A DNA stretch of 33,874 bases, taken from the NCBI GenBank assembly GCA_021736575.1, contig JAIPFP010000040.1, positions 1 through 33,874 on the forward strand. The letters run 5' to 3'. The notes beneath the pieces are model-generated. The model was not told the origin of the DNA and ran no database searches. It saw nothing but the letters and a program-made list of their open reading frames with translations. Below, in pieces: positions 1 to 31,385 of the stretch. The position numbers and the translations under genes are program-made. Numbering within the stretch: the first letter of the stretch is position 1; each line of letters begins with the position of its first letter. Source of the stretch: Pirellula sp. GTDB lineage: Bacteria; Planctomycetota; Planctomycetia; Pirellulales; Pirellulaceae.

Positions 1-1
1 C

Positions 2-2554: not shown

Positions 2555-2590
2555 TTATTGATTGGATGCCTTTCACGGATAGTGGGTTCT

Positions 2591-3436: not shown

Positions 3437-3441
3437 CCTGA

Positions 3442-3942
3442 ATGGCTGAACTAACGCAACGTGAACGCCTTCAGCCTTCTTTGTTGGATCGCTTGACAGA
3501 CGACGCACCCAAGGATCTCAATGAATCACGCGAATCGAGAGTGCTCACTTTGCAAAGGTTGCGAGAGTGTGTTTTACGGGATATTTCGTGGTTGTTAAAT
3601 ACCGAGAATGCGGAGCCCGTGTTGGATCTGGATGTTTACCCTGCAGTCCTAACGTCGGTGATTAATTATGGGATTCCAACGGTGGCGGGATTGACCGCGT
3701 CGGGGCTCGATCTGAAAAAGCTAGAAGTACAAGTTCGTGACTCGATTATCGCGTATGAACCGCGAATTCTTAAGAAGGGTTTGCAAGTGACAGTCTATTA
3801 TTCAGATGAGCTCATGAGCCGTAAGACGTTAATGTTCGAGATCGATGGCGAGTTATGGGCGCAGCCCGTCCCGATGCGTATGTACTTGCGGACAGAGTTG
3901 GACTTGGAAACTGGGAAAGTCACGATCAAGGAGACTCGGTGA
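3442..3942 (+). CDS. tssE: T6SS baseplate subunit TssE (gp25-like)
   Basis: LQPSLLDRLTDDAP...LRECVLRDISWLLNTEN...SVINYGIP, gp25/TssE pattern. Position directly before tssF. Confidence 0.92.
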   Translation: MAELTQRERLQPSLLDRLTDDAPKDLNESRESRVLTLQRLRECVLRDISWLLNTENAEPVLDLDVYPAVLTSVINYGIPTVAGLTASGLDLKKLEVQVRDSIIAYEPRILKKGLQVTVYYSDELMSRKTLMFEIDGELWAQPVPMRMYLRTELDLETGKVTIKETR

Positions 3943-3945
3943 TCG

Positions 3946-6887: not shown

Positions 6888-6889
6888 CT

Positions 6890-9631
6890 GTGTCCGAGAT
6901 CAGTCGTTCAAAGCTATTTGGAAAACTCAATTCACTGGGTTATAAAGCGATCGAGAGCGCGACTACTTTTTGCAAACTCAGGGGAAATCCCTACGTTGAG
7001 ATTGTGCACTGGTTTCATCAGATTCTCCAGCTTCAAGATTCGGACCTGCATCAGATCATCAAGAAGTTCGAGTTACAGCCGTCTCGTCTCGCCAAGGATT
7101 TCACAGATGCACTCGACCGATTACCGCGAGGTGCGACGAGCATTTCCGATCTATCGTCGCACGTGGACGAAGCGGTTGAAAGGGGATGGTTGTACGCGAC
7201 CTTGATGTTTGGACAGTCCCAAGTTCGCGTTGGCCATTTGATTTTGGGTTGCCTCAAGACACCTACTCTGCGAAACACGCTTTTGGGGATTTCACGAGAA
7301 TTTGAAAAGGTCAAGATCGATCAGTTGTCGGAGAACTTCGCCAATATCGTAGGCGCTTCACCGGAAGAGTCCCTTCAAAGCAAAGATGGGAGCTCTGTTG
7401 GTGGAGGAGCCTCGCCAGGTGAAGCCAGCGGAGCCATGCCAGGCGAATCCAAAGGTCAAGACGCGCTCAATAAATACACGGTTGATTTGACCGAACTGGC
7501 TCGTGCGGGCAAGATCGATCCAATCGTAGGGCGGGACGAAGAGATTCGTCAAGTCGTCGATATCTTGATGCGACGTCGACAAAACAACCCGATTTTGACG
7601 GGCGAAGCAGGGGTCGGAAAAACGGCGGTTGTCGAAGGATTTGCACTCCGAATCGTGGCTGGGGATGTTCCACCTGCGCTCAAGGATGTTTCTCTGCGCG
7701 CGCTCGATGTCGGTTTGTTGCAAGCTGGCGCGAGCATGAAAGGGGAATTTGAGGAACGACTCAAGCAGGTCATCGAGGCCGTGCAAGCATCTCAGAAACC
7801 GATCATCCTTTTCATCGATGAAGCGCACACACTGGTGGGGGCAGGTGGTGCCGCAGGTACAGGCGATGCTGCTAATTTGCTTAAACCAGCTCTTGCACGA
7901 GGAACGCTGCGAACCGTCGCCGCTACGACTTGGGCAGAATACAAAAAGCACATCGAAAAAGACCCCGCACTGACCCGACGTTTCCAAGTGGTTCAAGTCG
8001 ATGAACCTTCGGAGGAGAAAGCAATTCTCATGATGCGTGGGCTTGCTTCAACACTGGAGAAACACCATCGCGTGCAAATCTTGGACGAAGCCATCGAAGC
8101 GGCTGTAAAGCTCTCGCATCGGTACATTCCCGCTCGGCAATTGCCAGACAAATCGGTCAGTTTGCTGGATACCTCGTCCGCTAGAGTTGCCATCAGTCAG
8201 CACGCAATTCCAGCCGCAGTGGATGACTCTCGCCGCCGGATCGAGGCATTAAAGACGGAGTTGGAGATCATCGACCGAGAGAAGATAGTGGGAGTGGCGA
8301 CCGAGGATCGCGAGCATGCCGTTCGGGAGAAGATGCTGGAAGAGCACGTTCGTCTCGCTGGTCTGGAAGAACGTTGGAAAACGGAAAAGAAACTGGTAGA
8401 AGACATTCTACAGATTCGCGCCAAACTGCGTGAACGAAGCGGCAAAGTCGAAGGGACGCATAGCAAACTAGAAGCTCAAGCCGATACGGTAGCTGCAGCC
8501 GTTGCCCCAGCCGAAGCAGCCAGTAGCTTGACTGAGGAGCAACGTGCCAAATTGCTGTCGATGCTCAAAGACAATCAAGACAAACTAGCGGAACTGCAAG
8601 GAGATAACCCGTTGATTTTGCCGACGGTGGACGAACAGGCGGTTGCTTCGGTCGTCGCGGATTGGACTGGGATCCCAGTTGGACGCATGGTAAAGAACGA
8701 AATTGAAGCAATCCTTTCACTGGGAGAAACGCTAAACAAACGCGTTATCGGCCAACGTCATGCGCTCGATATGATCGCCAAGAGAATTGAGACGTCGCGA
8801 GCCCGATTAGACAACCCAAACAAGCCTATCGGTGTCTTCATGCTGGCTGGCCCGTCCGGGGTCGGTAAGACAGAAACAGCCATGGCTTTGGCTGAGTCTC
8901 TTTATGGTGGCGAGCAAAATATGGTTACCATTAACATGAGCGAGTTTCAAGAAGCTCATACTGTGTCCACCCTCAAAGGGGCTCCTCCGGGTTACGTAGG
9001 CTATGGTGAAGGTGGTATTCTGACTGAAGCGGTTCGACGCAAGCCCTATAGCGTTGTGTTGCTCGATGAAGTGGAAAAGGCTCACAGCGATGTGCACGAG
9101 ATCTTCTTTCAGGTCTTCGACAAGGGGATCATGGAGGATGGCGAGGGACGCATGATCGACTTCAAGAACACTCTCATTCTCCTAACCACGAATGTCGGCA
9201 GCGATTTGATTATGAACATGTGCAAAGATCCGGAACTCATGCCGAGTCCCGAAGGAATCGCCAAAGCCTTGCGAGAGCCGCTTCTCAAGGTGTTTCCCGC
9301 CGCGTTGCTCGGAAGAATTGTGACCATCCCCTATTATCCGCTCAGCGATGAGATGGTTGCCAACATTTGTCGTCTCCAGTTGGGACGAATCGAAAAGCGA
9401 ATCGCCTCGAATCATAAACTGCCGTTCGTTTACGATGACGATGTTGTTCAATTGATCGTAAACCGATGCACCGAGTTGGAAAGCGGTGGTCGAATGATCG
9501 ATGCGATCCTAACCAATACTTTATTGCCATCGATTAGCCGCGAAATGCTAAATCGGCTGATGGCGGGCAGCAAGATCTCGCAAGTCCGCGTCGCGGTTGA
9601 CAATGGTGAATTCACTTATCTGTTCGATTGA
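6890..9631 (+). CDS. clpV: T6SS sheath-disassembly AAA+ ATPase TssH/ClpV
   Basis: GTG start. Two AAA+ modules (Walker A GEAGVGKT and AGPSGVGKT; Walker B ILFIDEAH and [11 protein letters not shown]), a ClpV-type N-domain, and a position in the tss operon. Confidence 0.96.
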
Positions 9632-9659
9632 ACGAACCCCTTCCTGCGGAGAGCAATTC

Positions 9660-14502: not shown

Positions 14503-16578
14503 ATGGCTGAGGAAAGTTTGCATGAAATCACTGGTCCCTTGGCCGCCGACTGCATTTTTAGAGGATTGAAGGGGAGCGATTGTTTGGGGCAACCTTTTAA
14601 TTACGACGTGGAAGTCCTAAGCCGCAAAGTAGACCTTGATCCATTGGACATGATCGGCAAAGACATGTCGGTCGGAGTAAATTTGAAAGAGGGTAAAACT
14701 CGCTACTTTCATGGAATCATTAGTGATTTTTTGAATGCTGGCGTTGTTGGAGGGTATCAGCTCTACCAGCTCACTTTGAAACCTTGGTTCTGGTTGTTAT
14801 CTCACTCTCTCGATTCTCGCATTTTCCAAGAACTGTCGGTGCCGGCTATCTTTGAGAAAGTCCTGAAAGACAAGAACGGCTTCTCGGACTACAGTGTGCG
14901 TTTGAATGCGGAGTATTCACCCAAGGAGTACTGTGTCCAATACCAGGAGTCTGACTTCAGTTTTGTCAGCCGACTGATGGAGCAAGAAGGGATATACTAC
15001 TATTTCTTGCATGAAAAAGAAAAGCACACTTTGGTGATTGCGGATTCGCCATCATCCCATCCAAAACTGAGCGGGAATGGAAAAATACTTTTTCGTGCTC
15101 CGAACGAAGTTGCAGCCGGGGAGGAGCATATCTATCGATGGAAGCATCAAGTTTCTTTTCAGCCTGGAAAGTTTGCAACAAGGGACTTCGATTACAACAA
15201 ACCCAGCGCAGACCTAGAAGTTCGATTGGAGTCGAGCCGTTCTCACCCGCACTCAAAACTGGAGAAGTACGAATACCCAGGTCATTACACTACGACTGCC
15301 GACGGTAATCGTTACTTAAAAATTCGCAACGAAGAGTATGAGGCGAAACACTCTCACATCTCGGGTGTGGCAAGGTCGTACAATTTTTTTGCTGGCGTTC
15401 AATTCGAATTGAGCGAGCACCCACGTGATGGGGAGAATGCTGAGTACACGGTTTTCTCGGCGGAAATAACCCTAAGCTCCGGCGAAATTGAGCAGTTCAG
15501 CGCCAATTCCCGGAATCAAATGGAGGTTGTCTTTATTGCAATACCGAAGGACTCCACATACCGCTCTCCGCGCACCACTATCAAACCCATCATTGCCGGC
15601 CCTCAAACAGCCATCGTCGTCGGTGCAGACGGCAAGGAGATTTGGACCGATAAATTGGGGAGAGTCAAAGTCCAATTTCCTTGGGATCGAGAAGGGAAGA
15701 AAAATGAAAAAAGCTCATGTTGGATCCGCGTTTCGCAGATTTGGTCCGGCAAAGGCTGGGGAAGCATGCATATTCCTCGCATCGGGCAGGAAGTAATCGT
15801 CGAGTTTCTCGAAGGGGATCCGAATCAACCTTTAATCATCGGTCGCGTTTACAACGGCGAGCAAGGTACGCCCTACGATCTACCAACTTTGGCAACGCAA
15901 AGCGGATTGAAATCGCGTAGCACTCCAGAAGGTGACAAAGAAACGTTCAATGAGTTGCGTTTCGAAGACAAAAAAGATAATGAGTCCATCTATTTCCATG
16001 CGGAGAAAGATTTTGAGAGAGTTGTCGAAAACAACGACACCCTCAAGGTCGGTTTCGTCAAAAAAGACAAAGGTGATCAAACGATCGAGATCTACAGAAA
16101 CCAAGATGTAAAGATCGGTACGAGCGAAAGCGATGGCGGGCAGACCATCGAGATTTGGAAAGACCAAAAAGAAACGATTCATACGGGCAATCGGGAGACA
16201 ACCATTACCAAAGGGAACGATACACTGACCGTTTCCGCTGGCAATCGGGAGACAACCATTACCAAAGGGAACGATACACTGACCGTTTCCGCTGGCAATC
16301 GGGAGACAACCATTACCAAAGGGAACGATACACTGACCATTTCCGCCGGCAATCAGACCATTAGTATCCCGGCGGGAAATTGTGAAATTACCGCAGGCAA
16401 AAAAATCGTTCTGACCGTAGGGGGTAGTAGTATTGAAATCACTCCAACCAAGATTCTCATCAAGGCCGCTACGGTTTCGATTCAAGCCGACATGAAAGCC
16501 GAGGTGACTGCCGCTACAACGGACATTCAAGGGAGTGCGATGGTCAAGATAGCTGGCGGAATAATCAAGATGAACTGA
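14503..16578 (+). CDS. vgrG: T6SS spike protein VgrG/TssI
   Basis: SFVSRLMEQEGIYYYFLHEKEKHTLVIAD, GKGWGSMHIPRIGQEVIVEFLEGDPNQPLIIGRVYNGEQGTPYDLP, and a C-terminal beta-helix-like repeat region. Confidence 0.97.
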   Translation: MAEESLHEITGPLAADCIFRGLKGSDCLGQPFNYDVEVLSRKVDLDPLDMIGKDMSVGVNLKEGKTRYFHGIISDFLNAGVVGGYQLYQLTLKPWFWLLSHSLDSRIFQELSVPAIFEKVLKDKNGFSDYSVRLNAEYSPKEYCVQYQESDFSFVSRLMEQEGIYYYFLHEKEKHTLVIADSPSSHPKLSGNGKILFRAPNEVAAGEEHIYRWKHQVSFQPGKFATRDFDYNKPSADLEVRLESSRSHPHSKLEKYEYPGHYTTTADGNRYLKIRNEEYEAKHSHISGVARSYNFFAGVQFELSEHPRDGENAEYTVFSAEITLSSGEIEQFSANSRNQMEVVFIAIPKDSTYRSPRTTIKPIIAGPQTAIVVGADGKEIWTDKLGRVKVQFPWDREGKKNEKSSCWIRVSQIWSGKGWGSMHIPRIGQEVIVEFLEGDPNQPLIIGRVYNGEQGTPYDLPTLATQSGLKSRSTPEGDKETFNELRFEDKKDNESIYFHAEKDFERVVENNDTLKVGFVKKDKGDQTIEIYRNQDVKIGTSESDGGQTIEIWKDQKETIHTGNRETTITKGNDTLTVSAGNRETTITKGNDTLTVSAGNRETTITKGNDTLTISAGNQTISIPAGNCEITAGKKIVLTVGGSSIEITPTKILIKAATVSIQADMKAEVTAATTDIQGSAMVKIAGGIIKMN
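16186..16347 (+). repeat. Three tandem 54-bp units inside vgrG (18-aa unit GNRETTITKGNDTLTVSA)
   Basis: Units begin at 16186, 16240 and 16294. Units 1 and 2 are identical at nucleotide level; unit 3 differs only near its end (accatttccgcc vs accgtttccgct). Confidence 0.95.
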
Positions 16579-16615: not shown

Positions 16616-17500
16616 ATGCGCGTTGCAATAGTCGCAAACTCAGGCTCAGCCACTGGACGCAGGATCGTTCTGAGAGGGGGGCAGATAGCTCGATTCGGCC
16701 GAACGGAATGGACCGATTTCGCATTTCCGAGCGATGCAGCAATGGCGGATGTCCATTTCGCGATTCGTTGCGGAACAGAAATATGCTCGATCCAACGTTT
16801 GGCGGTGGAGCGAGAGACGTTCGTCAATGGTGCGGCAGTAGAAATCGCGCGTTTGGTTGACGGAGACGTCGTTACGGCAGGTCAAACACAGTTCGTCGTC
16901 GAGATCAACGACGGAGCGACAATCGTCGAAAACGATGCGACCATCGCCGTTGTTCCACCTGAAATGTTCGCATCCGAAAGCGTGGAAATAACCGAATTGG
17001 CCACCTACTTTGGCCTGTCCGCGAAAGCGATTGCAGTGGCCCAATCGTGTGAAGTGAAAAGCAGTTTTGAAAGTGAACTCGTGCGGGAAAACTTGCTCAA
17101 GGACGCGATCCGATGGCGTGCTCACACGATGCCCAAGCCAGCCGCCGTGCTTTGGGTAGGCGGATGTGCGAGTGAACAAATGCAATCGGAAAAGTCACAG
17201 GTCCAACTGTCGGCCTTCGGTGCTGCTCTCGCGTGGGCAAACGAGCCGACGGAAGAGAATCGAGAAAAGTCAGCGAGTCTTGCCGAGGAAGCCAAATTCG
17301 AAGGGCTAGGAGGAGTACTAGCAGCGGCCGCAGGTTGGAGCGGTGGTAGCTTGGCACCTGCGGGACTTACGGAAATTCCGCCCGATGATCGCTTGACCGG
17401 TCGATGCGCCTCCATTGTGTTCGACCTGGTCGATGGTGCCGGAACACCCATGGAATCAGCGGCGCGATTGCGAGAATTTTTGAAACGCTCCCAAAGTTAG
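16616..17500 (+). CDS. FHA-domain-like protein with a DUF6931-like C-terminal region
   Basis: N-terminus GGQIARFGRTEWTDFAFPSDAAMADVHFAIRCGTE...FVNGAAVEIARLVDGDVVTAGQTQFVVEI fits an FHA fold pattern. C-terminal LLKDAIRWRAHTMPKPAAVLWVGGCA resembles DUF6931 from memory. Directly downstream of vgrG. Confidence 0.65.
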   Translation: MRVAIVANSGSATGRRIVLRGGQIARFGRTEWTDFAFPSDAAMADVHFAIRCGTEICSIQRLAVERETFVNGAAVEIARLVDGDVVTAGQTQFVVEINDGATIVENDATIAVVPPEMFASESVEITELATYFGLSAKAIAVAQSCEVKSSFESELVRENLLKDAIRWRAHTMPKPAAVLWVGGCASEQMQSEKSQVQLSAFGAALAWANEPTEENREKSASLAEEAKFEGLGGVLAAAAGWSGGSLAPAGLTEIPPDDRLTGRCASIVFDLVDGAGTPMESAARLREFLKRSQS

Positions 17501-17534
17501 TTTTGTCCCATTTCTCAAGGAACGATTCGTTGTA

Positions 17535-20500
17535 ATGTCTAAACTCGCGACCAAGCCGGCAGTTCTCAGGGAATCTTGGCGCCCCGATTCGAACACGGAT
17601 CTGCGGGGCAGACGCCTTATCCTTTTTCGCCGTATCGCATTCCTATGCTTGCTAGGGCTTTTGTCGATTGTCTTTTCGTATCTGCTCTTCAGTCCCTTTT
17701 TTCATCCAACTACCAGATTGTACTTTCTAACCGCTGGTTCCTATGATCGGCTGGACGTTCAGCCCGTTCCGTACTTTCGAGAAGACGCCATCCGATTTCT
17801 GTCCGTCGACGGTCCATTTAAGCGAATCGATGCAACCAATGAATTCTTCCTGCTGGAATCTCCAGAAGCCTGTCGAGAATCTCTCCAACAAATCGCTTCA
17901 ACGATTTCACAATCCTCGGATGTCGTTCTCATCAGTTTGAGTGCCCATCCCACGCTTATCTCTGAAAGTCCATACCTTAAATGCGGTAATGCCGATGATT
18001 CGAAACCCACACTAGCTGCGATTTCGTTAGAAGAAATCATCGAATTACTGGAGAGAGTTACTGCCGGGACAACCGTACTCTTGTTGGATATTGGGCCCAA
18101 ACAGGAACGTTCCTTGGTCGGGGCAGAGCAAGAGAAGTTTATTTCTTCCGTTCAAGACCTAATGAAGAAAAGCACGAGTTCATCCGTTTGGATAATGCTC
18201 TCCAATTCGCCAAACGAGAGTTCGTATTCTTCATCCGAACTAAGAGCTTCCGTATTCTCGTATGCAATCTCTCAGGGCTTGCAAGGAAAAGCGGACCTCA
18301 ACGAAGACAAATCGATTGATCTGGAAGAGTTCTATCGCTACGTGGTTGGTTTCACCGGTTCGACGATCGACAGGAACTCCGGCGGCGTTTCCAAGCAAAC
18401 GCCTCTCCTGTTTGCTACAGGAGTGAATCAAGTCTCTGCTGCTTCCTCGCGTTTGATTGCAAGTGTACCTGAGCCTGTTAACAAATTCTCCTGGAAATCG
18501 ATGATTCCAGGATGGTCCAAGCAAGTCGAAACGGACGAGTCGGACGAAGCAGAACCTAAACCAGCGCATTCAAAAGAAGAGATCGAGAGAAAGGAGAAAG
18601 AAAAAAGTTGGCTCACCGCGTATTGGGAAAAAAAATCAGAGCAAGTTTCCGAAATGGCATTGGATGAATTAAACGACAACATCAACTCCTTGCCTACCTT
18701 CATTGCCAAGCGAGTCAAGAAAACGATTGGAATTGAGGCGGAATCAGTCAGTGATTATGCGACCTCGGATAAAAAAGGGGATAAGGAAGCCGCATCGTCA
18801 AACGGAGATCCAGAAGAAACTTCTTCGTTGGTCCCACCCGTTGAGCCCCCCAAATCCGAACAATCACCGTCTCAAAATCAAACCAACCGCACTTCGCTAC
18901 CCGACTTGTCGAATCTTGGTACACCCAAGCAAACCAATGCGGAGTTGATCCAACTCGCATGGAAATATGCCGATTTTTTCGAAGAACCGTCTGATTCATT
19001 GACTCGGCCGCTCGATCTTGCACCACTTGCATGGCGGTCGTATTTGAATTCGCTGCACGGCATCGAAGAGCGACTCCGTAAAGACGCGGTAATAGATTCC
19101 AAAGAACTCCGCGTGAAATTGCTTTCGGAAATCATCGGTAGTTTGCAATTGGCGACGACCAAACGAGCGAGCGTTGGGCCAATGATCCAAAGTCTCGTCG
19201 AACAGATTCCCTCAATAGGACTTCCAGTCGGTTCTGTGCCAAGCTTTGCGTTGCTCGAACGATTCTCCCATTACGGCGGTCCACCCATTCCGGACTTGCT
19301 TAGACGGCAAATGCAGTTGATGGACGAAGCGGTTCTGGCAAATGATCAGGTACTCTACGATAAATGGTTAAACCAACTACCTGCCGAGGTTTCGAATCAA
19401 TACTGGGAATTCTTCGTCCCCAAACTGTTGTCGCTTCGACCAGCAATGAACTGGCAAGTAAAACGCAGACTTCTAACCCAATGGCGGCAATTGGAACGAC
19501 TGACATTTGATCCGTTGAATTCCAATTCGCAAATACAACGGGACTTGATTGCAGCGAATCGATTGATGTTGCAGAGCACAAGGCTTGCGTGCGACCAATT
19601 CGGAGCCGATTGGGAATCGCGTTGCCTCAAGATCTTGGATAGCGCAGAGCAGACGTTGGTATCCGCCGCTCAAAAATTGGCGCAAATTCAAACAGCGATC
19701 CAATTGAGAAACAATCATTTGAACAACCTGCCAGCATTGCTCCCATGGAGGGAAATCGCCATCGATCGATTTGGAACGGATGCTCTAGACGAGGATGTGG
19801 CGGTTAGCATTCAGGCACTTTCCAAGATTTCCTCACTGTTATTGTACCGAGAGACTTGCGACCTCAACGAACTGAACCGCTATCAGCGACAACTCGTCAA
19901 TGCCACGAGTCGGATCGAAGGCTTCTGGAATAGCGAAGCCAACAACGTTATCACAGGCAACCAAAAAAAGAATGTGGCACCCAATTGGATCGTGGACTCT
20001 CTTCTGTCCACTTCCTTGGTTCGGGGGCCCAATCGAAACCGACTCATCGTCTTAACCCTCCCCTCACCAACACCGCCTACCGAAGAGAAAGTCATCGCGA
20101 CTTCGCTTCCAAAACTTCCATCGAGAGAAACCACCGAGATCAGTCAAATCAAACACGCTCGATTCGTGAATGATGTAGCCCACTTGGCTGAGTTGGGGCT
20201 CGAACCCCCTTTTTTTAAACGCGATCATGCTGTTGTTGAAAATGGGCAAATCGAGGCTTTAGATCCTGAGGCTCATCGCATTCAAATCGAGACATTTTAT
20301 CAAAATCTTCCAGATCGCATTCTCGCAACCATAGCAGAGCAAGCCGACGCAAATCCGCGAGTCAGCGACAGTTTGAAAACGCGGTTATCGAGACTGCGAA
20401 TCGCCGACCACTGTACGCGATTGATGCACGCAGAAAACGCAAGCGACATCGATAGCAAGGCTTCGATTGGTAAGTTGTGGAGCCTTGAGTTTTCCTTGTG

Positions 20501-22973
20501 CCTGAGAAGTAAAAAGAATCTTGTGCGTGAAATGCTTCGGGATGCAGTTCCGGAAGAAGTACCATTCCTTCGCAATGCCATCGACCGTCTTGCGTTTATT
20601 GAATCCGAGTTATCGGGCATTTTATCGGGCATTGCGGAAGCGACCGACCAGCAAACGGTACGATTGCAATCGCGAGGAACGACATCTCTGTCCTTGATTT
20701 CGGACCCAACCGTAACAGGCGAAATTGTATGGAAGAACCTTGGTAAGCCGATCAGCAATGCTTGGTTGTTGGTCGATTACGATAGCGAACTACTCGAAGT
20801 CGAGAGCACATCGGGGCAGGCGCTGACTCGCGTCGGTATGTTGCCCCAACTTTTCGATGAAGGGGTCCGAAATGCAGAGCAGCAATGGATAGCCGCGCAG
20901 GCGAGTGCATCAGAAGGCAAAGAGATTGATGCCGAAATAGCGATCGCCCAGCAACGACTTGATTCCATTCGATCAAGCCAACAGTATCCCGTGCAGCCCA
21001 TCCCTTCGATTATTAAACCGAGTTTGGGAATGGCGCTCGGGCAAGAGGTTGCATTGCCATTTCGTGCCCGACGTATTGGAAAAGGTCCCGAGAAAACAAC
21101 CATCGTTTGGAAACTCGTGAGTGATGGCGCGTACCAACGGTTTGAAACAACGGTGCAGTTACCGTCGCCAAGGAGGATTCGCCTAAAATCCGAAGGACCG
21201 GGCGACACATGGAGCGAAACCGAAGAGGGTATTGTGTTGTTTCCATGGCCAAATCGAACCACGGATTTTCGTATCGGGCTGAGCAACGAAAGCGGAGAAT
21301 CCAAGGTACTGTCCATCGATTTGTTTGCGTGCTTGGAGAATCAAAGCACTTTCTTGCCTGATGGTTTTTTGAATGACGAGATTTCCAACAGGATTGCAGA
21401 TCGAATCGGCGAATTGGAAAAGATCGCATCGGTACCAGAAGTGAATTTGAACGAAGGCACTTCCATCCAGTGGCTGCCCATCCTGGATGCGGCGGGACTC
21501 GTACCGCAGGGATTAAAAGCCCCGGTTGCAAGCGACAGCCCAACGGGAGATGGTTCGGCCTCAATTCATCACGGAATTGTCGTCGTGTTAACCGACAAGA
21601 AAACGAACGAAAAATGTTGGAGACGAATCGATAGTCGCATACGTCATCCCCGAAGTTATCTTGAACCCACTGTCCGTTTTGATGCTGTTTCCGAACGCAT
21701 CACGATGCGGTTTAAGTCCTCGGTCGGCGAATCCTTGTTCAGCGACGGAATTCCGGTAAAAGCGAGGATTCGAGAGCCGTTGCCTCGCGGGACGGAAATG
21801 AAACTGGAGGGAACCGTTTTCGGTCGCGATGAACTGGAGTTGTATTGCCAAGTTCCTGAGAATTCTCCACGTGTCTTGACCATGGAAGTCGATGTGGATG
21901 GCTATCCAAGAGCCTACGTGTTTGAAGTGCCATGTTGGCAAACCAAAACAAACATTCCCGTCTCTTCAGATCTGCAACGCATAGAAATAGTCGAGCCTAG
22001 CGAGGGAACCAGTATTGGTCCGGAGTCCAAATCGCAGTCGGTCATCTTAAAGATCGATGCAATTCCAGGTGCATTTGATAGCCGAGGGGATTCTGTCGAA
22101 GTCGGTTGGGATCTGGATCGGGATCGCGAATTTGCAAACGAACAAACCACGAAATTCACGTCGGATCGACAAGCAGACATACGGCTGTTGACATCGCCGG
22201 TTGGTCGCTTGCTGATGTCGACCAAGGTCTCAGATATTCAACTCGAGTTAAGTACCCCAGCAATTAAGAAGGGACGTGTCAATCTGCTAGCTAAACTCAA
22301 TTCCGGCGGAAGAATTGTGTGGAGCGATCCTGTGGAGATCATTTCTGACTCCGATCCACCCACCATATCAGGAGTGGAACTGTTGCCTGGGCCCTCCCTC
22401 GCGCAAGGTATGGACCTAACGGTTCGAGTTGGTGCCGACGATGCGAATCTAAGTGGAGTTGTTATGGTAGAAGTACTGCTTGATGCAAACGGAGCCGGTA
22501 CCTTTGAGGCGAGCGGTGGGCGACCGAAACCGACGGAACGCCAGCCGGATGGTTCTTGGCTTGCTTTGCTTCCAACCAAAGAGATTTTGCCTGGCAGAGC
22601 CACGCTTTTGGTACGCGCCACGGATCGCGCAGGAAATAAGAGTCTTGTAACGAAATCTTCGGTCGAAATTGTTTCCAAGCAGGAGTGGGATGAGAAACAA
22701 AGTAATGCAGTTCAGGAATTGTCAGGGGCTGTAACTTACTCCGACGATCCAATGACCAATGCCAAGGTCTGGTTGGAGAATGAAAAGGGTGAGACAGCGT
22801 ATCGGACGACCACGAATGAACGAGGCGCGTTTCGATTCGCAAACGTTCAAGCCGGAAAGTACAAGCTTGTAGCGCTTGGGGTCGTCAAGAATCGCCCAAG
22901 AAAAGCGGAACGGCCCATCGAGGTTCTACCTCCACCCGCTCCGGTTGCTCGGGTTCGACTTCAAGCCAAGTAA
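17535..22973 (+). CDS. Giant (1812 aa) single-TM protein: caspase-like (C14-type) N-domain lacking the Cys, long central region, Ig-like and CnaB/carboxypeptidase-regulatory-like C-terminus
   Basis: TM segment IAFLCLLGLLSIVFSYLLF after a positively charged N-terminus. VVLISLSAHPTLISESPYLKC...TTVLLLDIGPKQ followed by MLSNSPNESSYSSSELRASVFSYAISQGLQGKADLNEDKSIDLEEFYRYV (C14-like). C-terminal VTYSDDPMTNAKVWLENEKGETAYRTTTNERGAFRFANVQAGKYKLVALG. Confidence 0.8.
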   Translation: MSKLATKPAVLRESWRPDSNTDLRGRRLILFRRIAFLCLLGLLSIVFSYLLFSPFFHPTTRLYFLTAGSYDRLDVQPVPYFREDAIRFLSVDGPFKRIDATNEFFLLESPEACRESLQQIASTISQSSDVVLISLSAHPTLISESPYLKCGNADDSKPTLAAISLEEIIELLERVTAGTTVLLLDIGPKQERSLVGAEQEKFISSVQDLMKKSTSSSVWIMLSNSPNESSYSSSELRASVFSYAISQGLQGKADLNEDKSIDLEEFYRYVVGFTGSTIDRNSGGVSKQTPLLFATGVNQVSAASSRLIASVPEPVNKFSWKSMIPGWSKQVETDESDEAEPKPAHSKEEIERKEKEKSWLTAYWEKKSEQVSEMALDELNDNINSLPTFIAKRVKKTIGIEAESVSDYATSDKKGDKEAASSNGDPEETSSLVPPVEPPKSEQSPSQNQTNRTSLPDLSNLGTPKQTNAELIQLAWKYADFFEEPSDSLTRPLDLAPLAWRSYLNSLHGIEERLRKDAVIDSKELRVKLLSEIIGSLQLATTKRASVGPMIQSLVEQIPSIGLPVGSVPSFALLERFSHYGGPPIPDLLRRQMQLMDEAVLANDQVLYDKWLNQLPAEVSNQYWEFFVPKLLSLRPAMNWQVKRRLLTQWRQLERLTFDPLNSNSQIQRDLIAANRLMLQSTRLACDQFGADWESRCLKILDSAEQTLVSAAQKLAQIQTAIQLRNNHLNNLPALLPWREIAIDRFGTDALDEDVAVSIQALSKISSLLLYRETCDLNELNRYQRQLVNATSRIEGFWNSEANNVITGNQKKNVAPNWIVDSLLSTSLVRGPNRNRLIVLTLPSPTPPTEEKVIATSLPKLPSRETTEISQIKHARFVNDVAHLAELGLEPPFFKRDHAVVENGQIEALDPEAHRIQIETFYQNLPDRILATIAEQADANPRVSDSLKTRLSRLRIADHCTRLMHAENASDIDSKASIGKLWSLEFSLCLRSKKNLVREMLRDAVPEEVPFLRNAIDRLAFIESELSGILSGIAEATDQQTVRLQSRGTTSLSLISDPTVTGEIVWKNLGKPISNAWLLVDYDSELLEVESTSGQALTRVGMLPQLFDEGVRNAEQQWIAAQASASEGKEIDAEIAIAQQRLDSIRSSQQYPVQPIPSIIKPSLGMALGQEVALPFRARRIGKGPEKTTIVWKLVSDGAYQRFETTVQLPSPRRIRLKSEGPGDTWSETEEGIVLFPWPNRTTDFRIGLSNESGESKVLSIDLFACLENQSTFLPDGFLNDEISNRIADRIGELEKIASVPEVNLNEGTSIQWLPILDAAGLVPQGLKAPVASDSPTGDGSASIHHGIVVVLTDKKTNEKCWRRIDSRIRHPRSYLEPTVRFDAVSERITMRFKSSVGESLFSDGIPVKARIREPLPRGTEMKLEGTVFGRDELELYCQVPENSPRVLTMEVDVDGYPRAYVFEVPCWQTKTNIPVSSDLQRIEIVEPSEGTSIGPESKSQSVILKIDAIPGAFDSRGDSVEVGWDLDRDREFANEQTTKFTSDRQADIRLLTSPVGRLLMSTKVSDIQLELSTPAIKKGRVNLLAKLNSGGRIVWSDPVEIISDSDPPTISGVELLPGPSLAQGMDLTVRVGADDANLSGVVMVEVLLDANGAGTFEASGGRPKPTERQPDGSWLALLPTKEILPGRATLLVRATDRAGNKSLVTKSSVEIVSKQEWDEKQSNAVQELSGAVTYSDDPMTNAKVWLENEKGETAYRTTTNERGAFRFANVQAGKYKLVALGVVKNRPRKAERPIEVLPPPAPVARVRLQAK

Positions 22974-23260
22974 CGGTTCGGCGGAAACGGCGAAATGCAA
23001 ATGAATAGTGCTTGGTTATGAACGGCCCAATAGCTTTGTTTCCCGTCGGCATTGACAAGGAATTGCTAGCAACAAGAAACACATGCATGCAAATTTCGCC
23101 GCATCCAGCTTGCAAGGATTCCATCGACTTATTTCCTTCAATTGCAACATTTTGACTCGAAACGACCCAATTGCGGCAACAAAAAGACTCAAGAAACTCG
23201 AAGGGGCAGGACGATAGACTGGGAGAACTTTAACGATTGTATCGCCCTAAGGCAGTTGAA

Positions 23261-24958
23261 ATGGCCAACCATAACTCCATCCTAACCCTTTTCGTTGGCT
23301 GCCTACTTGCGGCGTTGACGGGTTGCGCTTCGGCGCCAAAGCCGGCGTCCCCATTGCCGCCGACGAGTGCAGCGGTTGGGAACAACACCACGATCGTTGC
23401 GATTGCGTCAACTCCTGTTGCAAGTTCATGCACATTGCCTCAATTCCTCGGACTGCCCGGTATTGGTAAGGGGGTTGGTGGGGTTCTGCATCGCCTGGGG
23501 AGCCGATTATTAGCGGAACTTGATTTGACGGGCCGTTTTCCGGGATTGCAGCCGATGCCTCCGGTTCTTCCTCTCACCGCCCCTGCCAATCTTGAAGAAG
23601 GCGCACCACCAGCGGTCCAAGCTGCGGCTGCGATTAAGCTCGAAGAAGACGCAGCCCCTCAAAAGATTATGGCGCTTCGCTACCTTGCTACCTTGGGTTG
23701 TGGTGGATGTTATGACAAAGTAGAAGATGCTCTGCTCGAAGGCATGAGCGACTGCACCGAAGCGGTTCGCTACGAAGCCGTTAAGGCATTGCAATGCAAA
23801 CCAGAATGCGGATGCAAATACTGCAATGCTCCTTCTTGTTGCAGCACCAAAATTCGAAAACGACTCGGCGAACTGACCACGTGTGAGAAAGAGCCTTCGG
23901 AACGGATTCGGCGAATGGCACGGATTGCCTTGGAGTGTTGCTCAACCAAACCAATCGACGAGGACGATGTTCCGCGTGAAGGGCCACCCGCAATTGCCTC
24001 AACAGAACAGCAGACCCGTTCTGCTGCTCCGGAACTCTTTAACGGTATCGAATTGGTCAGTTTCCACTCGCCTGTTTCATCGATACCGATTGGCGACATG
24101 ATTCTCGCAGAAGTCAACGGCGAAGCGATCTACGAAAGTCAAGTTCTCCCTCTGGTGGATGCCAAACTTCAGGCCAAGGGCGAGTTGGTAGCTGGTCTGT
24201 ATGATGCAGCAGCTCGGCGCAGAGAGTTAAGGACCGAAACGTACCGGGTCATCGATTGGAAACTGATAAGCCAGCAGGCTCAAGGTAGAGTTCGTCAGAC
24301 AAGTACATTCAACTCAATCCAGCCCATGAATGCAAACGAGATTCAAGCATGGTTCGAACGCAACGTATCACTCGACACGACGGTTTCATCCCAGCAGTTG
24401 CTTGCTCATTATGAAGTTCATCGAGATCGCTATCGAACGAATACAAAGGTTCGGTGGGAACATGTCGTTGTCAATGTCGATCAATGCTCAAGTCGAAATG
24501 CTGCGATTGCAAATGCCAACTACCTCAAGAACAAAGCAATGGGTCTCCCTGTCGAACCGCCTGCCGGGTTTTCTCGCGAATCCGTCGACATTTTCACCAA
24601 GGGCTGGACCGATGTGACCGCCATCGACCCAATGGTAATACGGAATACCTTAAGGTCACTGCGGCCAGGACAGGTAAGCAATCCTATCGAAGACAAGAAC
24701 CGAATCCATGTTGTTCGAGTCCTTGAACGTCAAGAACAGGCCGTTGCGCCACTCCATTCTGTTGCAGAACAGATTAGGAAAGAGATTTTGAGCGAACGCA
24801 AGCAAGCGATGGAAGTGCGAGTCCTTTCCCAACTGCGGGCTCAGAGCAAGATATGGACGGTTTTTGATTCTGCGGCAGGCGGCCGAAAAACGGAAGACAA
24901 TCCGTCCGACCAAGCAAGGGAAATGGAACAGAATGCAATACCGACATCTTTCGAGTAA
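23261..24958 (+). CDS. Lipoprotein with Cys-rich HEAT-like region and SurA/PpiC (parvulin)-like C-terminal region
   Basis: Lipobox LAALTGC. Cys-rich helical segment RYLATLGCGGCYDKVEDALLEGMSDCTEAVRYEAVKALQCKPECGCKYCNAPSCC. C-terminal VNGEAIYESQVLPL...HYEVHRDRYRTNTKVRWEHVVV...LRSLRPGQVSNPIEDKNRIHVVRVLER, parvulin-like. Start taken at ATG 23261. Confidence 0.8.
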   Translation: MANHNSILTLFVGCLLAALTGCASAPKPASPLPPTSAAVGNNTTIVAIASTPVASSCTLPQFLGLPGIGKGVGGVLHRLGSRLLAELDLTGRFPGLQPMPPVLPLTAPANLEEGAPPAVQAAAAIKLEEDAAPQKIMALRYLATLGCGGCYDKVEDALLEGMSDCTEAVRYEAVKALQCKPECGCKYCNAPSCCSTKIRKRLGELTTCEKEPSERIRRMARIALECCSTKPIDEDDVPREGPPAIASTEQQTRSAAPELFNGIELVSFHSPVSSIPIGDMILAEVNGEAIYESQVLPLVDAKLQAKGELVAGLYDAAARRRELRTETYRVIDWKLISQQAQGRVRQTSTFNSIQPMNANEIQAWFERNVSLDTTVSSQQLLAHYEVHRDRYRTNTKVRWEHVVVNVDQCSSRNAAIANANYLKNKAMGLPVEPPAGFSRESVDIFTKGWTDVTAIDPMVIRNTLRSLRPGQVSNPIEDKNRIHVVRVLERQEQAVAPLHSVAEQIRKEILSERKQAMEVRVLSQLRAQSKIWTVFDSAAGGRKTEDNPSDQAREMEQNAIPTSFE

Positions 24959-25076
24959 CTAGATGCGTTGAATGGATTTCCAGTTTCTGCAGAAGTAAAG
25001 TAAAATGCCAATGTCGCAAGAAGCAGATTGGAAACTACCAACAGGTGATTGGGACCAATATCCCGATCCGTTGTTT

Positions 25077-25098
25077 GGACGGGACAATGATCCCGTCC
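25077..25098. repeat. Perfect 8-bp inverted repeat in the leader of the caspase/VWA gene
   Basis: ggacggga (25077-25084), caatga, tcccgtcc (25091-25098); 26 nt before ATG 25124. Confidence 0.8.
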
Positions 25099-25123
25099 TA
25101 CACTAATTTTCAGCGAATCAACC

Positions 25124-28100
25124 ATGAACAGCAATAGTGAACCCCAGCGAAACTGGAAGGGGAAATCGCCGGAGGTTATTGACACGGCACGGCATCGTTG
25201 GCAGTCTCAATTGGGTACAGACAATGCCGAGCACCACAAATCTCCGTTGCGATCACTCGATCTCGTTTTGAAATTTTGGCTGGTTCTGGCAATTGGTTTG
25301 TTGTCCGCTTTCGTGGTTCTAATTCTGTATTCTCCGGCAAAAACCCCAGTCATCGCGGTTGGAGCAACCAAGTACAGTTGGCCCATGCCTCCGATCGCGT
25401 GGGCAAAAGAGGACTTGCTCGGTCTGTCTTCGTTGAACGGCAAGACCATTCAGTTTAGGGATTCAAGTGATGAATGGCAGACAAAAACCCAGTCCTTGGA
25501 TGACCTCAGTATTCAATTGAAGGAAGTAGCGACGCTGACAAAGCGAACGGGTTCGCTGGTACTTTACCTGAACATGCATGGTGCAGTCAACGAAAGTGGA
25601 CAGCCCTGTCTAATCCCACCAGGCGCGAATGCCCTGAAGACGAAAGAATGGATCTCAATCGAAGATGTCGTTAATCGACTCTCAAAGGATACCGCCGCGA
25701 ATGTCAACGTTTTAGTAGTCCTTGACTGCGTGCATCAGAGCGTCAATTGGAATGTGGCTCAAGTGGACAACACATTCGTAGACCGCTTGGATTCTTGGGT
25801 ATTGGAACCTGAGGTGGTCAAGATCCTTCAAAATCGCATTGTGTTTTTGACATCGAATTCGCCAGACCAGCAGTCTTGGGGGGGCCCAGAACTGCACGCC
25901 TCTGCGTTTGGAAAAGAGTTGTGGCTCGGCCTAGCGGGTGCGGCGGACCAAACCAGTCGCGATGAAAATCCATCGTCTGGAAATGGGGATGGAATTGTTC
26001 ATTTGCACGAATTGACGACGTATCTTGCATCACACGTGGATCGCTGGTCGCAAGACTCGCGCGGTGCACATCAAGTACCGAAAATGATTCCATCGTCGCA
26101 TCCGAATTTTCAAGTCGCCTTGGCCTTCAAGTCAGGCGAATCGAAACCGCCCAAACACTCGGACTTGGCTAAAGCAAACGTTTCGGCTGATACTTTGACT
26201 GATCTATGGCGAATGATGGAGGAGTTGCGGCAGTTCGAAGTCTTTCGAACAGACCCCAGGAATTGGGCTGAACTCGAACACAAGATTCTTTGGTTAGAGC
26301 AACTCTCCGGCTCAGGCGAGGCATACTTTGAATTGGTAGACAAAAGGGTCCTTCCCGAACTAAGTAAGCAACTCAAGGAATCGGTTGACCGGGCGCGAGC
26401 AACAGCATCGTCCAATAACTATTTCGCGAAAGCTCAGTCGCTTCAAGCTTTTAGCCAAGCTGATAAATCGCCGGCTCATTTACCATCGCTCGCGATGATG
26501 GAATTGACGGGCGAGGTTTCTGGGACTACCGCGATCGAATTGAGAAAACGCCTGCTCGAATTGAATTCTTCAGACGCCCAAGTGCCACTGAATTCCATTG
26601 CGGCATCGGTTGGACTCACATCCGAAGCAAACACCTGGAACGAACTCAATTTTATCGGGATTTTGCGGAAGTACGATTGCTCGTCCATTTGGAATGACTT
26701 GTCGGTGGTCGATGAACTTTTGAAGTTGCGTGATCGATGCGAACGGCTTGCAGTCTTTGGCGATGTCCGTAGCCACCGTTGGCGTCGACCTCAATTGTTG
26801 ATTGCGGATCGAGCCAGACGCAACGCCGAAGATCGACTTATTTTGGGCCCGGACGATGCCGCCTCCGTGCCAGGTAGCGTCAACTGGAGTTCCTTGCAAC
26901 TGGCATTGGATTCGTTGGAGACAGCTAAAGATAGCTCATCTGTTCTTATTGAAAGGGCCGTGGGACTTCGAGACCTAGGCCTTTCCGAGGTAAGTTATCT
27001 TGCCAATTGGATCTGCTCACCCGACACGGAAATGGAAAATTTGGGTAAGTGGAAAACAAACCTCGAGCCGGCATCCGAGCCAATTTCTAACAGTCTTGAA
27101 TCGATCGACACTCTGACGGAAGTTCATCCGATGATTCGCGAAGAAACCGCGATTCAACAGTTGAAACGACTGATGGAGGGGCTGCATGAATTGGGGGAAA
27201 TGCTGGGTAAAGCGCCCATTGACGGAGCCATGAATGTCGAACGATTGAACGGTCTCGTGACCAGCGTCGAGCAAGATCGGAAATCCCTTTCCTTGTTGGT
27301 CGAGGATCATGTGCGACGAGCTTGCAACGAGACTACTCCATATGGGACAGTTGCTCGAGAGATTCCATCGCTATTAAATCTGCCCTTCCTTTCAACCGAG
27401 GATCGCATCGCGTTATGGAACAGACACGACCAAGTGTGCCGAACGTCGCTCGAAAAAAGTAAGCCTCCTGTGCAGAAAGAGTTACTGCCAGGACTACCCT
27501 CGATCATCCCAAGTCTTAATTTGAACAAGAGTCTGCCAGTCGATTCACCGAGTTCTTCTCGCAAGGAAGTGAAACATACACGATACTTGGATCGGATCCG
27601 CAATTGGGAAACACATCCAATCCGAGTTTTGTTAAAGCTGGCCTCGAACGAGGTCGCAAAAACAAAAAAACGCGAAGCGAACCCTGAACTTGATGCAATC
27701 GATCTCATCAACGAACAGTTGCGTCAACATTACGACTCGATGCGCAAATTCAATGTCCAGCATATATCAGATTGGGCGGGTCACTTGGATCTAAAAGGGG
27801 ACGCGGTTGTCACGGATGACTCCGAGAATTGGACAAAGATCTGGTTTGCAGAGCATGTTGAAAGATCGAATTTGTCGGTCTGTCCGGTTCGTAGTGAGTG
27901 GTATGCAACCTTGGATTGCAGAAAGATTGCTTTCAAAGACTTTTTGGCTTGGTACGCCGGACGGACGCTCGACGACTTCTATGCAAATGCAATGGAGGAT
28001 TCCGGTTCGATAAGTCCAGCCCGCACTTACTTTGAGAATGCCGTGCGAGATGTTTTGAATTATGCTGAAACAATTCCGATTTCATCGCACGAAATCGATG

Positions 28101-30334
28101 CCGCAATTCAGAGCATTCAGAAACGCGTGGGCGTTTTGGGGCCGATCGCAAGGAACGGTTTCAAGACAACGGCAAAGCTGGGGCCTCCGATATCGGGATC
28201 AGGATCGGGATCGGACAAAAGTTCCCTCGAAATTTCGGTCCAACCGACGGTCTCCAGCTTGAGTTCGGGCGAGGCATGGGCCATGCCGGTTCCAGCGGGA
28301 CAAGCGACCGCATTGGTTCGCACACCCAAAGGAATATTGCCGAGCGCTCGAATCCCGATACCCATGCCTACTGTCGCAAGCGGCTCTAGCTTTAACATGA
28401 CGTTTCCTACGTTTGAGTCTTCGCTTGCCCATGAGTCCGTTATTGTTTATCGAGGACACGAGTTCAAGTCCCCAATATTTGTAGGAATTGGCATCGTCGT
28501 TGACTTTGAACCGAAACGAGTCGACAGTGGAGAGGTAATCCTCTTCGGAGATCGACAACAGCAGCCATCCATCGTATTTGTTCTCGATTGTTCGTGGAGC
28601 ATGGGGGAGGAGATTCCAGTGGAGGCCATTGACCTTCGCACGCAGTCCCGCCTAGAGCTTGCAAAGGAGAGTATCCTTCGAATGCTCTCGCAAATCGCTT
28701 CACGACCCGATGCACGCGTCGGTGTCCGGTTGTTTGGACACCGGATGGGATGGTCGCGGCCGACGGACGGAAAGTCAGGAATGGTGAGCGGCAAGTCGCA
28801 GATTCTGGTTCAGCCAAATTATCCATCATCGATCCCAGAGGATCTCGTGCCGAGCAAAGATGTCGAAGCCATTTTGCCGCTGGGGCGGTTCACGCCAGAA
28901 ATGATTGGAGGATTGGCCAAGAAACTATCCAACATCGTCCCATGGGGACAATCACCGCTTTATCTTTCCATCGTGGATTCGTTCAAGGACTTCACCGCCG
29001 ATGATAATGCCACAGCGAAAAGCATCGTAATTATAACCGACGGTGATAACTTTCAATTCAATGCTTCGAATCGTCCAGGTGGTGAGCCTGGGGGTACAAC
29101 AAACCTGGAAACGGTGTACCGAGCCTGGAACAACACAAAAATTCCCGTCTTCATTTTGGGTGTCGGAATTTCCGAATCGGAGAACGGCAACACTCGAAAG
29201 ACGCTTCAAGAACTTGCAAACCGAACACAAGGAAAGTACTACGACATCGAACACGGAAACGATCTAATCCGGGCTTTAAACGAACAGTTGGCCATGGGGA
29301 CATACCAAGTCACCAGGTCGGAAGCGAGCCCCGGATTCAAGAAATCCAACGAACCCACCGAGGCAAAGCTAAATAGCCCAATGGAATTAAAACCACTATC
29401 ACTTGAATCCTCGGAATACCTTCTGGAATTCCAATCGATCCAAAAGTTGTTTCAACTCAAGGGTGGTGAGTCTTTGGAGATGTTCGTGCAAGACGATGGA
29501 CAAGACATCGTCAGCAAGCCATACGATCGCTCGACCCCTCAAACGGGTACTTTGAGCCGAGTTGGAGACAACGGCCGCTTGCTTGCACGTGTTCATCGCC
29601 CTTTGCCGCGCCAGAACGGAGTCGTTTTTCCGATTTCAATTCAAGATCCAGATAGCCATTTTACGCCTCGTCCAGACTTTCTATGGATTGAGATTTCTCC
29701 AGTTCTTGAAGGTGCCGTTAAGTCGCGTCAGTCCTATCTTTTTTACGATACGAATTATGAGAGCAAGACACCTGTCCCAATGGTGTCTTGGTTTGCATCC
29801 AATTGGCCCGAGTTGGCCCAAAAAGCGGATGTTCAAGTTTGGGCCAAGTACGGAGTCACGCAGCCCCTGCAGACCATTTCGATTTCGGAAATTCAAAAGA
29901 ACGCCCAGTCATCTTTGTCCGGAGTCTCATTGAAAGGAGTCGATGGCGTTACCTTGCAAATGAGTCTGAATGAAAATCGGCCTGGGGTCGGCAAATTCGA
30001 AGTAAGGCTATCGGAAATACATGACTCTACCTCATTGGGTGTTGGATCAATCGGCATTTATTTCGAGTCCCAAGATTTGATCCAACCGAAGCGAGTGACC
30101 CATCGTTTCGAGTCCGAAAGTGGACTGGTAATTCATACTTTTGAATTTGAATCAACCGAGATGAAGGCGTTGTTGCAATCTGAAAGCTCTCGCTTGACGA
30201 TCCGGTCACGTTCGTCCATCGTCGAGGGAGCATGGCAACTTCAAGATCGGCCACCTATTCGTGTCGAAGTTCGTCGACAGCCGGAGACGTTACCGTTCAT
30301 GCTCCCACCGGCAACGAACAGCCCAAAGAACTGA
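25124..30334 (+). CDS. Giant (1736 aa) single-TM protein: caspase-like (C14-type) N-domain with H...C dyad, long helical region, VWA domain near the C-terminus
   Basis: TM segment FWLVLAIGLLSAFVVLILY. LVLYLNMHGAVNESGQPCLIPPGA and VNVLVVLDCVHQS (H152, C202 by codon count), then VFLTSNSPDQQSWGGPELHASAFGKELWLGLAGAAD...GNGDGIVHLHELTTYL. VWA MIDAS IVFVLDCSWSMGEE and IVIITDGDNF. Confidence 0.88.
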   Translation: MNSNSEPQRNWKGKSPEVIDTARHRWQSQLGTDNAEHHKSPLRSLDLVLKFWLVLAIGLLSAFVVLILYSPAKTPVIAVGATKYSWPMPPIAWAKEDLLGLSSLNGKTIQFRDSSDEWQTKTQSLDDLSIQLKEVATLTKRTGSLVLYLNMHGAVNESGQPCLIPPGANALKTKEWISIEDVVNRLSKDTAANVNVLVVLDCVHQSVNWNVAQVDNTFVDRLDSWVLEPEVVKILQNRIVFLTSNSPDQQSWGGPELHASAFGKELWLGLAGAADQTSRDENPSSGNGDGIVHLHELTTYLASHVDRWSQDSRGAHQVPKMIPSSHPNFQVALAFKSGESKPPKHSDLAKANVSADTLTDLWRMMEELRQFEVFRTDPRNWAELEHKILWLEQLSGSGEAYFELVDKRVLPELSKQLKESVDRARATASSNNYFAKAQSLQAFSQADKSPAHLPSLAMMELTGEVSGTTAIELRKRLLELNSSDAQVPLNSIAASVGLTSEANTWNELNFIGILRKYDCSSIWNDLSVVDELLKLRDRCERLAVFGDVRSHRWRRPQLLIADRARRNAEDRLILGPDDAASVPGSVNWSSLQLALDSLETAKDSSSVLIERAVGLRDLGLSEVSYLANWICSPDTEMENLGKWKTNLEPASEPISNSLESIDTLTEVHPMIREETAIQQLKRLMEGLHELGEMLGKAPIDGAMNVERLNGLVTSVEQDRKSLSLLVEDHVRRACNETTPYGTVAREIPSLLNLPFLSTEDRIALWNRHDQVCRTSLEKSKPPVQKELLPGLPSIIPSLNLNKSLPVDSPSSSRKEVKHTRYLDRIRNWETHPIRVLLKLASNEVAKTKKREANPELDAIDLINEQLRQHYDSMRKFNVQHISDWAGHLDLKGDAVVTDDSENWTKIWFAEHVERSNLSVCPVRSEWYATLDCRKIAFKDFLAWYAGRTLDDFYANAMEDSGSISPARTYFENAVRDVLNYAETIPISSHEIDAAIQSIQKRVGVLGPIARNGFKTTAKLGPPISGSGSGSDKSSLEISVQPTVSSLSSGEAWAMPVPAGQATALVRTPKGILPSARIPIPMPTVASGSSFNMTFPTFESSLAHESVIVYRGHEFKSPIFVGIGIVVDFEPKRVDSGEVILFGDRQQQPSIVFVLDCSWSMGEEIPVEAIDLRTQSRLELAKESILRMLSQIASRPDARVGVRLFGHRMGWSRPTDGKSGMVSGKSQILVQPNYPSSIPEDLVPSKDVEAILPLGRFTPEMIGGLAKKLSNIVPWGQSPLYLSIVDSFKDFTADDNATAKSIVIITDGDNFQFNASNRPGGEPGGTTNLETVYRAWNNTKIPVFILGVGISESENGNTRKTLQELANRTQGKYYDIEHGNDLIRALNEQLAMGTYQVTRSEASPGFKKSNEPTEAKLNSPMELKPLSLESSEYLLEFQSIQKLFQLKGGESLEMFVQDDGQDIVSKPYDRSTPQTGTLSRVGDNGRLLARVHRPLPRQNGVVFPISIQDPDSHFTPRPDFLWIEISPVLEGAVKSRQSYLFYDTNYESKTPVPMVSWFASNWPELAQKADVQVWAKYGVTQPLQTISISEIQKNAQSSLSGVSLKGVDGVTLQMSLNENRPGVGKFEVRLSEIHDSTSLGVGSIGIYFESQDLIQPKRVTHRFESESGLVIHTFEFESTEMKALLQSESSRLTIRSRSSIVEGAWQLQDRPPIRVEVRRQPETLPFMLPPATNSPKN

Positions 30335-31369: not shown

Positions 31370-31385
31370 CCATTTTCCCTGGATT

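Follow-up and report, generated by a model that had tools for sequence, protein, structure and literature searches.

The DNA analysed here, a stretch of 33,874 nucleotides referred to as the window, lies at the start of contig C4 in the 353-contig draft genome of a Pirellula sp. (family Pirellulaceae, class Planctomycetia). It carries genes of a type VI secretion system (T6SS) and, downstream of the spike gene vgrG, genes for two very large membrane proteins, giant-1 and giant-2. Comparisons across planctomycete genomes indicated that these giants probably form the periplasmic portion of a T6SS membrane complex of non-canonical type, in which they would substitute structurally for the missing half of TssM. 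The canonical T6SS is anchored by TssJ, TssL and TssM, and the periplasmic domain of TssM reaches the outer-membrane lipoprotein TssJ (PMC10433429). In the open-access literature, neither these giants nor a T6SS membrane complex of planctomycetes was found described; only the presence of T6SS genes in Rhodopirellula baltica is reported (PMC2660368, PMC5394234).

Co-occurrence of the giants with the T6SS

The main sample consisted of 100 genomes of the window's family, 43 with TssF and 57 classed as T6SS-less from the lack of it. Giant-2 was detected in 37 genomes, all of them among the 43 with TssF (Fisher test, 2e-21, calculated without correction for shared ancestry). The 57 T6SS-less genomes, in which giants should be common if the link to the T6SS drawn in an earlier reading of the window (the initial annotation) were mistaken, contained none. 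Six TssF-positive genomes were missed at first; three of these (G023, G025 and G079) do carry giants when the loci are read with profiles, and each of the remaining three has a congeneric, giant-bearing genome. The pattern recurred in another family of the class, with giants in 5/5 T6SS-positive and 0/11 T6SS-negative genomes.

Every T6SS that was read completely was accompanied by two giants, and G086, which has two T6SSs, contained two pairs. The giants neighboured tssK-tssL-tssM in G004, G007, G016, G023, G024, G025, G034, G086, G099, G206 and G390, with gene orders such as tssK-tssL-tssM-giant2 (G004) and giant1-tssM-giant2 (G206). They also persisted on the same contig as the T6SS core, unlinked from it, in G036 (0.5 Mb apart), G053 and G097. 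The placement of the giants in a group directly after vgrG, as initially annotated, is correct for the window and for several relatives but holds only in part of the family; the giants are often far from vgrG elsewhere.

A profile of the N-terminal half of the giants matched 108 of the 296 genomes examined from the phylum. Outside the T6SS-bearing genomes of the class these matches were confined to the caspase part of the profile, and matches spanning both the caspase part and the stalk that follows it were restricted to T6SS-positive genomes of the Planctomycetia. Giant-1 matches obtained in T6SS-less genomes from searches with a single protein covered the caspase part only and were discounted. 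No caspase-plus-stalk match was obtained with this profile in T6SS-bearing planctomycetes outside the class, where more diverged giants could escape detection.

TssM in giant-bearing genomes

TssK and TssL were each found in 43/100 family genomes, while the periplasmic TssM family PF06761 was found only once, in a genome that carries an additional T6SS. PF06761 misses the full-length TssM of several planctomycete families, the outgroups G115, G264 and G317 being negative although their TssM proteins measure 1175-1493 amino acids (aa). The absence of this match alone was, hence, insufficient as proof of TssM loss, and the length of the TssM reading frame was determined instead with a custom profile of the TssM cytoplasmic domain. 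Frame lengths in the phylum were bimodal, with 482-782 aa in the class and at least 1000 aa in 48 of the 51 T6SS-bearing planctomycete genomes outside the class that were matched by the profile. Full-length TssM and giants were mutually exclusive except in G020 (L142 on C263, L143 on C250), which combines a giant-type T6SS with one of the other kind. The extra T6SS of this genome has a TssM of at least 968 aa, its TssK matches the Pfam family far more closely, and the system was probably acquired horizontally.

In the window's genome, tssK, tssL and a truncated tssM sit on a different contig, C296 (locus L102; Table 1). The TssL/DotU protein was recognised (PF09850, E=9e-25). Downstream of the truncated tssM lies a PAAR-like DUF4280 spike gene (L102, 4142-4528, minus strand) and not the rest of TssM. 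The short TssM recurs in some 30 relatives, mostly with two transmembrane (TM) helices, TM1 and TM2, at the N terminus and TM3 at the very end, indicating that the truncation is not a recent frameshift. An hhalign comparison of truncated with full-length TssM (probability 99.3) produced an alignment that stopped at TM3. A TssM piece of 202-206 aa containing TM1-TM2 was located directly before giant-1 in G009:C555 (L103), G073:C539/C201 (L104, L105) and G089:C664 (L106); in G009 and G073 the remainder of the cytoplasmic TssM formed a separate piece of 512-521 aa beside tssK. No TssJ-like lipoprotein was recognised beside tssK in the class, a result of low power as the candidate of outgroup G115 also fails Pfam TssJ.

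Architecture of the giants and their neighbours

The N-terminal halves of giant-1 and giant-2 are paralogous (hhalign probability 100, E=4e-53, residues 36-851 versus 52-778) and share one plan, namely a short basic cytosolic tail, one TM helix, a caspase-like domain and a long helical stalk. The single N-terminal helix after a basic N terminus, noted in the initial annotation for both proteins, was borne out by hydropathy and by a net positive charge lying mostly N-terminal of the helix. A W-R/K motif was present in the cytosolic tail of 24/33 giant-1 and 25/30 giant-2 sequences. FastTree analysis of the N-terminal halves placed 29 of 30 giant-2 sequences in one group (support 0.94) that contained sequences from the two families of the class, with no resolution among the deeper branches of giant-1. 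The C-terminal halves are unlike, with immunoglobulin (Ig)/transthyretin-like domains in giant-1 (Pfam matches to Big_13 and CarboxypepD_reg) and, in giant-2, the VWA domain already proposed for it (PF00092, E=8e-7) followed by beta-rich sequence. Lengths across the class ranged from 1460 to 1910 aa, a size that may be explained by the greatly enlarged periplasm that planctomycetes can have (PMC5394234).

Single-sequence Pfam searches did not reveal the caspase domain in the window's giants. The NCBIfam model caspase_w_EACC1 matched both below threshold (4e-7 and 5e-6), Peptidase_C14 was matched in 2 of 38 giant family members, and a profile of the giant caspase region also retrieved ordinary planctomycete proteins called Peptidase_C14 by Pfam. 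An AlphaFold model of giant-2 residues 68-790 had a pLDDT of 83 and a pTM of 0.83, with the alpha/beta domain near 95, and the top 44 PDB matches in a Foldseek search with the N-half model were all caspases or the paracaspase MALT1. The C-half model was of moderate confidence (pTM 0.49). On these four lines of evidence giant-2 is predicted to have a caspase fold, as the initial annotation had supposed, and the same fold is assigned to giant-1 from profile homology to giant-2 and the NCBIfam match.

The caspase-like domain of giant-1 was correctly described as degenerate (Table 1), and the position of the catalytic Cys was never Cys among 27 giant-1 sequences. An intact dyad had been noted in giant-2; both residues are indeed present in the window, but this is not a family property, as His and Cys were kept together in only 10 of 31 giant-2 sequences and the dyad was lost in 21. 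These counts ruled out a family-wide active caspase. The metal-ion-dependent adhesion site (MIDAS) motif of the VWA domain, DxSxS/T, was retained in all 31. As the dyad is mostly lost while the MIDAS is always kept, the sequences suggest a family of scaffold proteins with a caspase fold and a working VWA metal site, not of proteases.

Table 1. Coordinates of T6SS genes, giants and domains in the window (contig C4) and in locus L102 (contig C296) of the same genome
Feature	Sequence	Position	Strand	Remarks
tssC (cut at contig start), two hcp, impE/tagJ, tssE, tssF, tssG, tssH	Window	1..9631	+	T6SS genes
vgrG	Window	14503..16578	+	Spike
FHA-like + DUF6931 protein	Window	16616..17500	+	PF22011 DUF6931, E=8e-29
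giant-1, 1812 aa	Window	17535..22973	+	Basic tail, one TM, pseudo-caspase, helical stalk, Ig-like + transthyretin/CarboxypepD_reg-like C-terminus
giant-1 single N-terminal TM helix, residues 34-52	Window	17634..17690	+	Hydropathy; net charge +4 inside / +1 outside
giant-1 caspase-like domain, residues ~54-300	Window	17694..18434	+	His138 present, Cys position = Ile186; catalytically degenerate
Secreted lipoprotein	Window	23261..24958	+	Lipobox LTGC, HEAT-like stretch, C-terminal PPIase (peptidyl-prolyl isomerase; Rotamase_2)
giant-2, 1736 aa	Window	25124..30334	+	Basic tail with W-K/R motif, TM, caspase fold (predicted), helical stalk, VWA, beta-rich C-terminus
giant-2 single N-terminal TM helix, residues 51-69	Window	25274..25330	+	
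giant-2 caspase-fold domain (predicted), residues ~74-333	Window	25343..26122	+	His152 + Cys202; AF2 pLDDT ~95, Foldseek
giant-2 VWA domain, residues ~1148-1390	Window	28565..29293	+	MIDAS DxSxS at D1155
tssK	L102	17-1489		
tssL	L102	1486-2127		
TssM, 594 aa	L102	2163-3947		Matches N-terminal family PF14331 only

In the window, T6SS tail, baseplate and ATPase genes are followed by an unrelated insertion and then by vgrG, the FHA/DUF6931 gene, giant-1, the lipoprotein gene and giant-2. The last four were confirmed as consecutive, intact open reading frames (ORFs) on a single strand. This order from vgrG to giant-2 is repeated in one distant relative, a Pirellula sp. metagenome-assembled genome (MAG); the other distant relative is a Pirellulaceae MAG. 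Genes for sheath, tube, baseplate, spike and ClpV (TssC, Hcp, TssE/F/G, TssK, VgrG and TssH) were all found in the window's genome.

The grouping of the four genes into one module was not upheld. DUF6931 proteins also follow vgrG in the giant-less systems of G133 and G264, which rules out the FHA/DUF6931 protein as part of a giant module; on this gene order it is better read as an accessory of vgrG than of the giants. Its description as such a protein was sound for DUF6931, with the FHA-like match remaining below the cut-off (PF16697, 2e-6). The lipoprotein ORF (23237-24958) most likely starts at an ATG at 23261, and a HEAT/SurA-like lipoprotein, as proposed, is present in the window in that the lipobox is accompanied by a weak HEAT match and by Rotamase_2 (6e-9). 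The gene lies between the giants in many relatives; among their versions of the protein, a lipobox alternates with an ordinary signal peptide. The PPIase domain was, however, matched only in the window and in L121 and not in four other scanned relatives or in shorter versions of the protein, ruling it out as the defining feature.

Several other genes were observed around these loci. Directly 3' of tssH is an orphan of 392 aa (window 9597-10775, plus strand) with no Pfam match above the cut-off and no NCBIfam match; no counterpart was seen in those T6SS loci of relatives that were read. The insertion before vgrG contains a TPR protein with a glycosyltransferase 41 (OGT/SPINDLY-like) match (11964-13997, minus strand) and an orphan gene overlapping it (11005-11967, minus strand). 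Convergent with giant-2 is a Cys-rich putative lipoprotein of no known family (30423-31232, minus strand). The window ends with a KDPG/KHG aldolase and PfkB-family sugar kinase pair (31359-33054, plus strand) and a C-terminal fragment of ClpB truncated where the contig stops (33243-33872, minus strand), which are ordinary genes outside the T6SS.

A proposed membrane complex and its alternatives

The replacement of the periplasmic part of TssM by the giants is argued from their complementary distribution and from topology, not from homology. TssL (DotU) and the cytoplasmic half of TssM, which comprises TM1-TM2, the IcmF-N domain and TM3 and then stops, would continue to dock TssK and the baseplate at the inner membrane. 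Giant-1 and giant-2, accompanied by the secreted HEAT/PPIase (lipo)protein, would take the place of the periplasmic half, both giants lying N-in/C-out beside TssL and the truncated TssM. The caspase-fold domains, inactive in most cases, may lie immediately on the periplasmic side of the inner membrane and serve there for dimerisation or as a scaffold, a role that suits this fold because it dimerises. The helical stalks and the Ig-like and VWA parts could then build a trans-periplasmic cage or channel that extends to the outer membrane; the contact made elsewhere between TssJ and TssM may there fall to the VWA metal site and the lipoprotein. The evidence leans, somewhat less firmly than for the substitution itself, towards a T6SS subtype specific to the Planctomycetia with TssL, a half-TssM and an obligate giant pair, in which the caspase fold serves as scaffold and the VWA domain as periplasmic/outer-membrane connector. 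Of the roles suggested in the initial annotation, a planctomycete-specific membrane/baseplate adaptor is, hence, the one strongly supported, with the truncated TssM on the other contig as partner.

A number of observations weigh against substitution for TssM. An hhalign comparison of the giants with the periplasmic region of TssM gave no sign of sequence homology (probability <1), on which ground their origin as its split-off half was rejected, and TssM was not among the listed Foldseek matches of either giant-2 half model. In the window's genome itself the giants adjoin vgrG and not tssKLM, the two loci being on separate contigs. Short TssM frames were also found in three fragmented MAGs outside the class (G368, G371 and G381). 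Furthermore, truncation, giants and class are confounded by shared ancestry and may reflect a single evolutionary event.

The giants could instead be envelope regulators or sensors gating T6SS firing, with giant-2 an active protease in some species, giant-1 its pseudo-enzyme partner and the VWA domain used for sensing or ligand binding. Pairs of active and inactive paralogues are a common regulatory design, and the retained dyad of the window's giant-2 and of the other sequences that keep it, as well as the invariant metal-site motif, would fit. A gating protease should, however, retain its dyad, and this has been lost from two-thirds of giant-2 sequences while the VWA motif stays; nor would a regulator explain why the periplasmic half of TssM is lost only where giants occur. 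The protease/sensor role offered in the initial annotation is weakened by these findings, and we consider it rather unlikely. Improbable, in turn, is a role as accessory anchors across the envelope, which would strengthen a minimal core of TssL and TssM, perhaps through binding to peptidoglycan or the outer membrane, without forming a channel. An enlarged periplasm (PMC5394234) and the adhesin-like VWA/Ig architecture are consistent with such anchors, but an unrecognised protein would have to perform the periplasmic job of TssM; a non-exhaustive search noticed no other large membrane protein of the same distribution beside tssKLM, and the presence of two giants in every fully inspected system also argues against this role.

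It is very improbable that the giants are T6SS cargo (effectors) or immunity or self-intoxication proteins, the last two of these being suggestions of the initial annotation that found no support. Their position beside vgrG in the window and several relatives is as expected of cargo. T6SS cargo normally varies and is exchanged among vgrG loci, whereas the giants occur as one pair per T6SS, are conserved in size throughout the class, each have a TM anchor and often adjoin tssK/L/M at a distance from vgrG. Accidental proximity of large caspase/VWA proteins common in planctomycetes, for which the wide spread of caspase-domain proteins in the phylum might speak, is already refuted by the distribution, given that caspase-plus-stalk matches are limited to T6SS-positive genomes of the class and giant-2 never occurs without TssF in the main sample.

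The proposed substitution for TssM can be compared with known systems. Like canonical TssJLM systems (T6SSi), those of the Planctomycetia have TssK, TssL and a three-TM TssM cytoplasmic domain in partial synteny; they differ in that TssM ends after TM3, the IcmF-related periplasmic part is absent, no TssJ was identified and two giants are present. The closest precedent, by analogy, appears to be the TssNQOPR complex of the Bacteroidota T6SSiii, which combines single-pass PKD (Ig-like) and vWA proteins with a lipoprotein and whose genes are obligately tied to the T6SS (PMC10781749). The likeness is one of domain composition: proteins that cross the inner membrane once, Ig-like and vWA domains in the periplasm, and a lipoprotein. 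T6SSiii has no canonical membrane-complex genes, whereas the Planctomycetia keep TssL and the cytoplasmic half of TssM; the window's genome, therefore, falls outside T6SSiii as defined by the lack of TssL and TssM, TssN itself not having been searched for. The giants are also much larger, have a caspase fold (predicted), of which no example is reported for the T6SSiii complex (PMC10781749), and carry the VWA domain on an inner-membrane protein where T6SSiii has it on the lipoprotein. In the non-canonical complex of Acinetobacter (PMC10564176), lineage-specific envelope proteins likewise compensate for a lost core component, but in that case the lost component is TssJ, with TssM retained in modified form, whereas the Planctomycetia are without half of TssM and the added giants are unrelated. 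Pseudo-orthocaspases (PMC6426788) are, like the giants, bacterial caspase folds without the His/Cys dyad; these are described as Tyr/Ser variants, whereas loss of the dyad has taken many forms in the giants, which are large, anchored in the membrane and tied to the T6SS.

The result bears on the origin and replaceability of the T6SS membrane complex. Replacement of the canonical complex has so far been described in Bacteroidota (T6SSiii), and T6SSiv is without it. If substitution by the giants is correct, the Planctomycetia would provide a further case, alongside Bacteroidota, of unrelated proteins replacing periplasmic parts of this complex, and the caspase fold would have the unusual job of scaffolding a secretion machine. 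In this clade TssM has lost its periplasmic half but not the inner-membrane half used for docking. Attachment of the baseplate and passage through the envelope are thereby uncoupled, in a way that can be tested. The substitution would also account for the conserved but unannotated giant caspase-VWA proteins of planctomycetes, and would give a marker for a type of T6SS missed by TssM-based detection.

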